A DNA stretch of 52,999 bases, from assembly GCA_945903305.1 (NCBI GenBank), contig CAMDOA010000014.1, positions 1 through 52,999 on the forward strand, read 5' to 3'. Below the pieces are notes generated by a model. It searched no databases and was not told where the DNA came from. It saw nothing but the letters and a program-made list of their open reading frames with translations. The position numbers and the translations under genes are program-made. Within the stretch, counting starts at the first letter, position 1. The number at the start of each line of letters is the position of its first letter. The DNA comes from Chitinophaga pinensis. GTDB taxonomy: Bacteria > Bacteroidota > Bacteroidia > Chitinophagales > UBA10324. This document shows, one piece after another, positions 24,426 to 26,343 of this stretch.

Positions 24426-24497
24426 AAAAAAAATTTGAGTTGCTAAAATAAAATGGATGTACGAGTATCCTAATGAAATATAAGAATGCGAAAGGGT

Positions 24498-24645
24498 AAC
24501 CGCCGACTTTAGTCGGCGGACAGTGACGGCTTAAGCTGATGGCTTTAGCCATGACTTTTTCTCAGTGATATTACTGTGCATGAAGTCAGGGCTAAAGCCG
24601 AGGGCTCATCACCACGGAAAATCCTCCGACTAAAGTCGGAGGTTA
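24498..24645 (+). repeat. Nested-palindrome unit 1 (REP-like)
   Basis: It contains three hairpins in a row. H1 is CCGCCGACTTTAGTCGGCGG (24500-24519, 9-bp stem). H2 has arms GGCTTTAGCCATGAC (24541-24555) and GTCAGGGCTAAAGCC (24585-24599), 14 of 15 pairing. H3 is CCTCCGACTAAAGTCGGAGG (24623-24642). The left end TAACC-H1 and right end H3-GGTTA are themselves inverted repeats, so the unit is a palindrome of palindromes. Confidence 0.85.
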
Positions 24646-24663
24646 TCATAGGAGCGAGGCATT

Positions 24664-24812
24664 AACCGCCGACTTTAGTCGGCGGACAGAGACAGCACCT
24701 GTAGCTGGGCTTTAGCCATGACATTTTCATTCGAGTATTTGTGTTTGTGAAGTCAGGGCTAAAGCCGAGTGCTCATCACCACGGAAAATCCTCCGACTGA
24801 ATTCGGAGGTTA
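24664..24812 (+). repeat. Nested-palindrome unit 2 (REP-like)
   Basis: Same order as unit 1: H1 at 24666-24685 (identical), H2 arms at 24708-24722 and 24752-24766 (identical arms, different loop), H3 at 24790-24809 with a decayed centre. The segment GCTCATCACCACGGAAAATC before H3 is identical in units 1 and 2. Confidence 0.85.
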
Positions 24813-24831
24813 TCGGAGACGGAAGCATTAA

Positions 24832-24851
24832 CCTCCGACTTTAGTCGGCGG
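24832..24851 (+). repeat. Solitary hairpin of the REP family just upstream of the transposase
   Basis: CCTCCGACTTTAGTCGGCGG is preceded by TTAA. It is a hybrid of the H1 and H3 arms. It ends 43 nt before the transposase ATG, so it may be the end recognised in mobilisation of the transposase gene. Confidence 0.75.
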
Positions 24852-24894
24852 ATTTCTGAGCGCGCTAATTATATTTCGAAAAAAAATTTCACTC

Positions 24895-25332
24895 ATGTCA
24901 TTTGTAAAAGTGATGATTCATGCAGTTTGGGGAACGAAAAACAGGAATAGAATTCTTGAAAAAGAAAAACGACAAATTCTTTTTGAGCATATAAAAACCA
25001 AATCGAGAGATAAAGAAATTTTTATCAAAACCATTAACGGGCACCTCGACCATATTCATATATTATTTGGGTTGAATGCTGAATTATCACTCTCAAAAAC
25101 TATTCAGCTTATTAAGGGCGAATCATCATTCTGGGCAAACAAGCAAAAATTAATACTGCCTAAACTTGAATGGGCGGAAGGTTATTATGCAGTATCAGTA
25201 AGCGAATCGATTGTTCCGAAAGTTGTGGCTTACATAAACAATCAGGAAGAGCATCATAAAAAGATTTCATTCAATGAAGAGTGCGATTTGTTTCCAAAGA
25301 AATATAATTTCACTCATGCCGGTAAAGAATGA
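24895..25332 (+). mobile_element. Y1/HUH transposase, IS200-like or REP-associated (RAYT-like)
   Basis: A 145-aa single-domain transposase CDS. It has LDHIHILFGL (the HUH pair His53/His55), LSKTIQLIKGESSFW, and AYINNQEEHHKK with the catalytic Tyr113 and a Gln four residues on, as in IS200/IS605 TnpA. Such enzymes cut single-stranded DNA at subterminal hairpins. The unusual part is the setting: two full palindromic units and one hairpin upstream and a further unit downstream of the next gene. That matches a REP-RAYT arrangement better than a plain IS200. The stop overlaps the hydrolase start by 4 bp. Confidence 0.88.
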
Positions 25333-26162
25333 GTCTCTCGCCTGAAAGTTTTTATCTCAACTACAACAATCACCGAATTCATTATCTGAAATTCGGTAGC
25401 GGTGAGAAACTGCTTTTTTGTTTTCACGGGTTTGGGGAGAGTGCGTATGTGTTTTCAGTTCTGCAATCTTCGATTGAAAAAAATTACACGGTTGTTTCCA
25501 TTGATTTACCCTTGCATGGTTTGACTCAGTGGAACGAAAAATATTTTGTGAAGAAGGATGTGAATGAAATCATTCTGCAGTTGATGCAAGATTTCGGAAA
25601 GGAAAAATGTTCGCTAATGGGTTTCAGCCTTGGAGGAAAAATTGTAATCGGTGCCATGAGTCTGATGCCCGAAAGTGTGGAAGAAATATTTCTGATTGCA
25701 CCGGATGGTTTGCGAAAAAACATCTGGTACAACCTTGCCATATATCCTTCGTGGGGACGGAAATTATTTCTCAATCTGGTGCAACATCCGGAGAAATATA
25801 TTGCGCTCGTGAAATTTCTTGCCGCTATAAAAATTGTTCCGAATGCAATGAAAAAATTTGTGGAGTCGCAGCTTGAAACAAAGGAGAAGCGCCAACAGGT
25901 TTTTGATGTGTGGCTGTGCATCCGCGATTTCGACACGAAAGTTTCTGAAGCAAGAATGCTGTTGAACAAGCACAACATTGCTTGCTATCTTTTCTTCGGA
26001 GAGTTTGATAAAGTGATTCGACCTGCATTCGGGAAAAACTTCGTGCGAGGTTTGAAGAATTATCAATTGAGCATTCTTCCGAAAGGACACAACCTGGTGA
26101 AAGATTATCTGAATTTAGAATTGCAAAAAATATTATTGGCAGTCAGAGATGGAAAGCACTAA
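25329..26162 (+). CDS. Alpha/beta hydrolase, possibly a passenger of the palindrome-bounded segment
   Basis: A 277-aa protein with HGFGESAYVF (oxyanion region, about residues 34-43), the nucleophile elbow MGFSLGGKIVIG (Ser near residue 98), LFFGEFDKVIRP (acid Asp) and LPKGHNLVKDY (catalytic His). The catalytic triad is complete and the substrate unknown. The start codon overlaps the transposase stop (ATGA). The TAA stop at 26160-26162 is the first part of the TAACC that opens palindromic unit 3. The gene therefore sits exactly between the transposase and a repeat unit. Confidence 0.85.
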   Translation: MSLSPESFYLNYNNHRIHYLKFGSGEKLLFCFHGFGESAYVFSVLQSSIEKNYTVVSIDLPLHGLTQWNEKYFVKKDVNEIILQLMQDFGKEKCSLMGFSLGGKIVIGAMSLMPESVEEIFLIAPDGLRKNIWYNLAIYPSWGRKLFLNLVQHPEKYIALVKFLAAIKIVPNAMKKFVESQLETKEKRQQVFDVWLCIRDFDTKVSEARMLLNKHNIACYLFFGEFDKVIRPAFGKNFVRGLKNYQLSILPKGHNLVKDYLNLELQKILLAVRDGKH

Positions 26163-26300
26163 CCGCCGACTTTAGTCGGCGGATGGTTCGTGCTTCTGGC
26201 TTTAGCCATGACCTTGCTGCCATGAAAAATTCTTTTGCAGGTCAGGGCTAAAGCCAAACTCACCGTTCCCACTTACATCCTCCAAATAAGGTCGGAGGTT
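26161..26300 (+). repeat. Nested-palindrome unit 3 (REP-like)
   Basis: H1 at 26163-26182 is identical to units 1 and 2. The H2 arms at 26198-26212 and 26241-26255 have identical sequence. H3 at 26279-26298 is decayed to CCTCC...GGAGG. Same orientation as units 1 and 2. Confidence 0.85.
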
Positions 26301-26343
26301 ACAAAGTTCTTCTTCAATAAATACAATTGCTAATATTGACTTC

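Follow-up and report, generated by a model that had tools for sequence, protein, structure and literature searches.

A stretch of 52,999 nucleotides from Chitinophaga pinensis (the window: contig CAMDOA010000014.1 of assembly GCA_945903305.1) carries three nested palindromic units around tnpA, a short gene for a Y1/HUH transposase. These units are probably short non-autonomous mobile palindromes, namely doublets of repetitive extragenic palindromes (REPs) that form hairpins (REPINs), and depend on a transposase of TnpAY1 subclass 1.2. Comparison between loci shows each half-unit to carry a palindrome of fixed form, H1, whose stem differs between transposase families. By the same sequence comparison, a unit is a pair of half-units that face opposite ways, the genes mostly have inverted palindromes on their flanks, and copies are scattered in intergenic DNA. 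That the enzyme drives the movement of the units is what we infer by analogy. The locus contains the following features:

24497-24645, forward strand: unit 1 (U1), with H1 at 24500-24519, H2 at 24541-24550, H2' at 24590-24599 and H3 at 24623-24642
24663-24812, forward strand: unit 2 (U2), with H1 at 24666-24685, H2 at 24708-24717, H2' at 24757-24766 and H3 at 24790-24809
24829-24855, forward strand: half unit, H1 alone (24832-24851), about 40 nt upstream of tnpA
24895-25332, forward strand: tnpA, 145 aa, TnpAY1 subclass 1.2 by motif, HUH residues H53/H55, Tyr113 in YINNQEEHH
26160-26301, forward strand: unit 3 (U3), with H1 at 26163-26182, H2 at 26198-26207, H2' at 26246-26255 and a degenerate H3 at 26279-26298

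The original prediction, made from the letters of the window alone, had described three units of the order H1-H2-H3 around a Y1/HUH transposase. This description holds. The three units, which are joined by a fourth, H1-only copy that the prediction had overlooked, measure 142-150 bp, and TnpA matches Y1_Tnp (PF01797) with 87.2 bits. All three have the layout TAACC-H1 ... GGCTTTAGCC-ATGAC ... GTCA-GGGCTAAAGCC ... H3-GGTTA. The true order is H1-H2-H2'-H1', the "H3" being the reverse complement of an H1 variant. Identical H1 hairpins and identical H2 arms had been claimed as well, and indeed neither H1 (CCGCCGACTTTAGTCGGCGG) nor the H2 cores (GGCTTTAGCC/GGCTAAAGCC) differ among U1, U2 and U3. The reported decay of H3 was also recovered, from a perfect copy in U1, through one stem mismatch in U2, to two stem mismatches and an altered centre in U3. 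As proposed, the ends TAACC-H1 and H3-GGTTA are inverted repeats of each other, H3 being H1 reversed. The half unit is a hybrid with an H3-like left arm and an H1-like right arm, and stands in tandem with U1 and U2 at a period of 166 nt. Folded as single-stranded DNA, the units reach z-scores of -8.2 (U1), -7.2 (U2) and -6.6 (U3), with none of 200 shuffles equally stable for any of them. The suggested folding of the whole unit on itself is the best structure of U1 only; in the best structures of U2 and U3, H1 and H3 each form a hairpin of their own and H2 pairs with H2'. An Rfam scan of the window returned no family at gathering score.

The enzyme is, judged by its motifs, a member of TnpAY1 subclass 1.2 and not a REP-associated tyrosine transposase (RAYT), because the RAYT motif Y---NP is absent at its catalytic tyrosine, where it reads YINNQEEHH, and because its score against REP_Tyr_transpos (NCBIfam NF047646), 20.5 bits, lies below the cut-off of 80. 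It passes the IS200/IS605 model NF033573 with 63.9 bits (cut-off 55). The features of subclass 1.2 present here are DHIH, YINNQEEHH, a length of 145 aa and one full copy in the genome; where the published motif has WQ, this protein has WA. In a structure search with the AlphaFold model (pLDDT 88.4), the TnpA proteins of ISDra2 and IS608 came out on top, and the REP-bound RAYT 4er8 ranked 30th (E 9e-6). The consulted parts of Quentin et al. 2018 give Y---Q--HH as the signature of subclass 1.2, list it without REPs and generally without IS200 terminal structures, and report a mean copy number of 1.7 with 36% identity between copies (PMC6006769).

The neighbourhood of such genes was surveyed at 92 loci, comprising 11 from 16 family genomes, the 80 best among at least 566 stretches confirmed in a contig scan, and the window. 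The motif Y..Q..HH is present in 89 of the 92 proteins and the remaining three are broken open reading frames (ORFs), yet only the 11 family proteins lend it independent support, since the motif itself was one of the two peptide patterns used in the contig scan. In a midpoint-rooted protein tree of 89 rows (without the broken ORFs L046, L079 and L087), a clade of 53 rows that includes the window (clade B) separates from another of 36 (clade A). Hairpins crowd around the gene, with 2.5 per kb upstream and 3.9 per kb downstream within 150 bp, and 0.06-0.11 per kb beyond 1 kb. Across the 92 loci, 151 perfect 20-nt palindromes lie within 700 bp of tnpA (1.23 per kb) versus 55 beyond 2 kb (0.060 per kb), and palindromes are found close to tnpA in loci of several phyla. 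Nearly all of the near palindromes (149/151) have the centre TTCA, TGAA, TAAA, TTTA or TTAA, and 128 of the 151 start with CC; just 22 of the 55 far ones have a TTYA-type centre. The class thus takes the form of a T[A/T][A/G] tag and a 20-mer, usually CC...GG, with an 8-bp stem that varies by locus and a TTYA centre. Read in the TTYA direction, the tag has T at position -3 in 89% of 151 CC...GG instances, A or T at -2, and G or A at -1. With G at -4 in 7% of them, the GTAG/GTRG head of RAYT REPs is not found.

A perfect 20-mer with the class centre stands within 700 bp of the gene in 44 of the 53 clade-B loci, near 5 of the 36 clade-A genes, and, as a control, at 3 of 139 positions taken 3.3 kb or more from the gene on the same clade-B contigs (tag and CC were not demanded in these counts). 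The palindromes are oriented. The nearest upstream one reads TTYA in 31 of the 36 loci that have one, the nearest downstream one is reversed in 35 of 42, and both kinds occur as perfect copies within 700 bp in 19 of the 53 clade-B loci. Allowing one mismatch, the H2 sequence GGCTTTAGCC lies at most 70 nt 3' of 48 of 150 H1s (20 loci), and on the 5' side of 8. Nineteen of these 20 loci are in the tree, all within a supported clade of 29 rows to which the window belongs; the spacing from H1 to GGCTTTAGCC in the subclade of the window is 13-31 nt, mostly 19-25. Moreover, differences in stem and in TnpA are correlated (Mantel r 0.33, p 2e-4, 46 loci, shared ancestry included).

Other hairpins, which look shorter, lie beside some clade-A genes (L017, L018, L023, L024 and L083), for example TCCC-GTA-GGGA and CTCTGCATTTCATGCAGAG. 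Because the hairpins near its genes differ, a different substrate is suggested for the subclass-1.2 genes of clade A. At L089, L099, L101, L106 and L110, a short hairpin of the TCCC..AGGGA type is often present some 10-12 nt before the tagged palindrome, where it may stand in for H2 as the second element.

For searches of whole genomes, a covariance model (R1) was trained on 71 sequences from 46 loci, with the window excluded, at most two sequences per locus, one stem mismatch allowed and repeated 20-mers dropped. Palindromes with a TTAA centre or without CC...GG were kept out. The model picks four palindromes of the window at E 2e-4 to 2e-3, which are both ends of U1 (24491 forward, E 8.1e-4; 24618 reverse, E 2.1e-4) and the H1 of U2 (E 4.5e-4) and of U3 (E 0.0018). 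The half unit reaches E 0.051 and the H3 of U2 just E 0.19; the H3 of U3 is unlisted.

The abundance of the palindromes follows the presence of the gene. We scanned 149 genomes of the same taxonomic class as the window, at least 90% complete, using E 0.01 for R1 and 1e-10 for the gene, stricter filters and 47 scored candidates per genome; the sample includes the genome of the window and possibly other contributors to R1. R1 matches were present in 55 genomes and tnpA in 93. At least three matches occur in 34 of the 93 genomes with tnpA versus none of the 56 without it (Fisher p 8e-9, shared ancestry included), and at least one match in 49/93 versus 6/56. Among the family genomes, the eight with a tnpA match have 1-18 R1 matches each (own genome aside) and the five without one have 0, 0, 0, 0 and 4 (E 0.05). 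Twenty genomes reached through tnpA loci have 7-69 matches each (E 0.05, at most 150 candidates scored), and since they were chosen among palindrome-bearing loci, most of which fed R1, these counts are evidence of dispersal and no association test.

Three named genomes, Salinimicrobium xinjiangense, Flavobacterium denitrificans and Mucilaginibacter sp. MD40, illustrate how the copies are arranged (144 of 145 listed matches analysed). A neighbour lies within 300 nt of 106 of the 144 matches, and the two members of a neighbour pair point in opposite directions in 55 of 69 cases. None of the 30 examined matches falls inside an ORF of at least 120 aa, which is the kind of ORF that takes up 77% of the DNA. 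In Mucilaginibacter sp. MD40, the dispersed stems equal the tnpA-flanking stems of the same genome in 8/8 cases at 5 sites (best-scoring matches, within one mismatch), and in none of the three genomes did dispersed stems match the tnpA-flanking stems of the other two. The same Mucilaginibacter (L052, L150) has arrays that resemble bacterial interspersed mosaic elements (BIMEs), in which two mostly opposed stem types alternate, like the Y and Z REPs of Escherichia coli.

A further genome of the class, G046, holds 40 R1 matches and one tnpA. Here, 14 complete H1-H2-H2'-H1' units were found among 20 stretches examined, entire nested units recur in near-identical form at scattered positions, and 1 of 35 matches lies inside an ORF of at least 120 aa (85% of the DNA). 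Several of the units (L160-L179, e.g. L165:1372-1640) are inside the loop of a palindromic dimer resembling CGTC-tagged repeats.

In the genome of the window itself, allowing one mismatch in the stem adds five matches to the exact ones, versus 13 for the reversed control pattern, and two of these five (C38, C64) are class palindromes with other stems. R1 finds six further sites (E < 0.01), all with other stems, and 4 of these 6 have a GGCTTTAGCC- or GGCTTCAGCC-type partner nearby. One of them, on contig C3, has a 20-mer identical to one beside the tnpA of congener G014, and near-identical stretches sit at other places in congeners G011 and G014. These six seem to be remnants of families whose gene this genome lacks. 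As for tnpA remnants beside them, only short weak matches were found (best E 0.012). The genome has one full tnpA; a separate locus (L012, C56:407-619) gives a second, partial Y1_Tnp match of 20.7 and 22 bits, under the Pfam cut-off.

Congeners reveal two insertions in the window. The tnpA block lies before, and unit 3 after, a host gene:

25329-26162, forward strand: alpha/beta hydrolase gene of the host, between the two insertions (context, outside the element)

In 5/5 congeners the oxidoreductase, hydrolase and glycosyltransferase genes follow one another with neither units nor tnpA between them, and the end of the hydrolase gene is the start of the glycosyltransferase gene. In the window, unit 3 sits between these two; its first three bases are the hydrolase stop codon, and about 40 extra bases separate it from the glycosyltransferase start. 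Because all five congeners lack both insertions and keep the hydrolase gene that lies between them, unit 3 is, by this comparison, a separate transposase-free insertion. We ruled out the hydrolase gene as a passenger of the element, as it is at the same place without an insert in 5/5 congeners.

How the units might move can be sketched from related enzymes. In IS608, ISDra2 and TnpAREP, hairpins in single-stranded DNA mark where the transposase cleaves, and the bases 5' of the hairpin foot guide it, according to the consulted part of PMC8266576. By analogy, a TnpA dimer would bind H1 hairpins in single-stranded DNA, for example in the lagging-strand template, the TWR tag would pick the cleavage point, and the enzyme would nick through Tyr113 and rejoin the DNA. 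Copying or movement of units in trans would be the outcome, with the doublet as the presumed mobile unit. The variable stem may act as the specificity determinant that co-evolves with the enzyme, and H2 as a shared second element that serves recognition or folding. In the genome of the window, such activity would have left a local cluster alone, namely an array with a tandem period of 166 nt and a single unit 0.8 kb past tnpA. No palindrome was found between the window tnpA and the hydrolase gene. With the stop codon of tnpA running into the hydrolase start codon (25329-25332), the palindrome that usually lies downstream is missing, and this copy is therefore probably either worn or newly arrived.

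Several results weigh against this interpretation. All five mismatch-free matches of the exact window stem in its own genome are at the window locus, which means that this stem is not dispersed. Residue 94 is Ala in the window TnpA and Gln in nearly all aligned relatives; owing to this Ala94 and to the lack of a right-hand palindrome beside the gene, the activity of this TnpA is uncertain. Within clade B, 9 of 53 loci have no perfect copy. The Mantel correlation drops to 0.18 for pairs below 60% identity, and neither it nor the Fisher test had shared ancestry removed. The training sequences of R1 were chosen as palindromes, so nothing follows from their pairing. One or two R1 matches occur in 6 of the 56 class-sample genomes without tnpA, and the four matches listed above for a family genome without tnpA belong to G005. 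Conversely, 44 of the 93 genomes with tnpA have no match; part of these can be explained by the other clade, which seems to use something else (31/36 loci without class palindromes). In two of the named genomes the dispersed stems fit the genome's own tnpA-flanking stems poorly, with 4/9 in F. denitrificans and 0/8 in S. xinjiangense. Finally, the head of a CGTC-like repeat lies within about 300 bp of 9 of the 14 units in G046. This repeat may carry the G046 units, and for that reason G046 says less about TnpA.

Taken as a class, the palindromes are extragenic, dispersed and linked to a Y1 gene, as in the working definition of a REP, with the exception that the stem of the window is not dispersed; dispersed inverted doublets that form a hairpin, the mark of REPINs, are present. 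The comparison with REP-RAYT systems in the original prediction therefore stands as far as a dispersed, extragenic, inverted-doublet class tied to a gene is concerned, and fails in that the enzyme is no RAYT and its own stem is undispersed. Its expectation of scattered transposase-free units with few transposase copies is borne out in a relative, G046, with 40 matches and one gene. The absence of further copies in the genome, which it had named as speaking against the idea, applies to the exact stem and not to the class, given the six other palindromes.

Could the locus be an ordinary insertion sequence (IS) of the IS200/IS605 type with terminal hairpins, and the dispersed units miniature inverted-repeat transposable elements (MITEs) from its ends? 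The passed IS200/IS605 model, the predicted fold nearest to ISDra2 and IS608 TnpA, and the inverted hairpins that flank most subclass-1.2 genes fit this explanation, which we nevertheless regard as unlikely. Instead of the several near-identical whole-element copies expected of an IS, the own genome has one full tnpA, its second match being partial and under the cut-off. Gene-bearing genomes of the class sample have 1-9 tnpA versus up to 40 palindrome matches, and the low copy number and low identity between copies published for subclass 1.2 point the same way, as does the lack of a palindrome between tnpA and the next gene in the window.

The units might also be carried along by some other repeats, for example the CGTC-like ones in G046, with TnpA merely regulating, or regulated by, nearby copies. 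Besides the 9/14 units with a CGTC-like head, this would agree with the unit-free CGTC-like dimers present in G046 and abundant in congener G123, where a 3-kb G046 query that holds the repeat arms has 132 matches (nearly all listed ones to the arms) and R1 has none. However, the head accompanies only 1 of the 30 best matches in the three named genomes, 0 of 18 matches with enough flank in congener and family genomes, and 0 of the 6 other own-genome palindromes, and it is absent from the window, while palindromes hug tnpA across several phyla. Thus, we consider this explanation improbable, and hardly more probable than the least credible one, in which host regulatory or terminator hairpins cluster near the gene by chance and do not move. 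Their intergenic position and stable hairpins would suit such a role. Against it stand the orientation-coded form with its TWR tag, TTYA centre and variable stem, the abundance that tracks gene presence, the near-identical whole nested units at dispersed places, and the congeners without the insertions.

We therefore prefer transposase-dependent REPIN-type doublets, and the novelty within the REP/REPIN kind lies in both the transposase subclass and the palindrome class. A literature search, with most subscription journals outside its scope, found no report of palindromes for subclass 1.2 in the consulted parts of the sources. With less confidence, we lean towards a broader reading, in which a class 1 IS200-like lineage, apart from the RAYTs, founded a REP/REPIN world of its own, in other phyla as well as in Bacteroidota. 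The signal that this lineage recognises would have two parts, namely an H1 with a TWR tag, a TTYA loop and a stem specific to the lineage, and, in one subclade, an H2 that does not vary. REP systems would then have arisen at least twice, and subclass 1.2 would be REP-mobilising and no orphan. Subclass 1.2, described in 2018 without REPs or a clear role, gains a candidate substrate that can be tested in vitro. REP/REPIN biology would extend to an enzyme class thought to lack REPs, offering a second, possibly independent case of a transposase turned into a genome-resident mobiliser of palindromes. R1 can be used to annotate intergenic repeats in these genomes.

Our comparison with known systems draws on the consulted parts of the publications cited, and on Bertels 2017 as presented in PMC6006769. 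REPs with TnpAREP (RAYT), REPtrons and BIMEs (Nunvar 2010, PMC2817692; Quentin 2018, PMC6006769) share with the present system a Y1/HUH gene near palindromes that, in the relatives, are mostly inverted about it, dispersed extragenic copies whose number is tied to the gene, a stem that follows protein differences, and alternating arrays, here in Mucilaginibacter sp. MD40. They differ in that the present enzyme is of class 1 and lacks Y---NP, the tag is T-W-R instead of the GTAG/GTRG of RAYT REPs, the palindromes have a fixed 20-nt form with a TTYA centre, and one subclade has a second palindrome, GGCTTTAGCC. REPINs (Bertels and Rainey 2011, PMC3116915) are likewise dispersed and made of two inverted REPs that form one long hairpin, but the present units have inner nested palindromes, another REP class and another transposase subclass.

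With TnpAY1 subclass 1.2, as described in the consulted parts of Quentin 2018, the window protein shares Y---Q--HH, a short length and a low copy number, and many of its named relatives are Bacteroidota. Unlike in that publication, where the subclass appears without REPs and generally without IS200 termini, palindromes were found here. IS608 and ISDra2, of the IS200/IS605 family, resemble the present system in predicted fold, catalytic residues and hairpins beside the gene, whereas the window element is not multi-copy in its genome and its palindromes act like REPs. Another comparison concerns GTAG- and CGTC-tagged repeats, described in 2013 by Di Nocera and colleagues. These are also short tagged palindromes that form dimers, some nested in other palindromes, but they carry another tag, and the CGTC repeats are reported without a dedicated transposase in the consulted part of PMC3733652.

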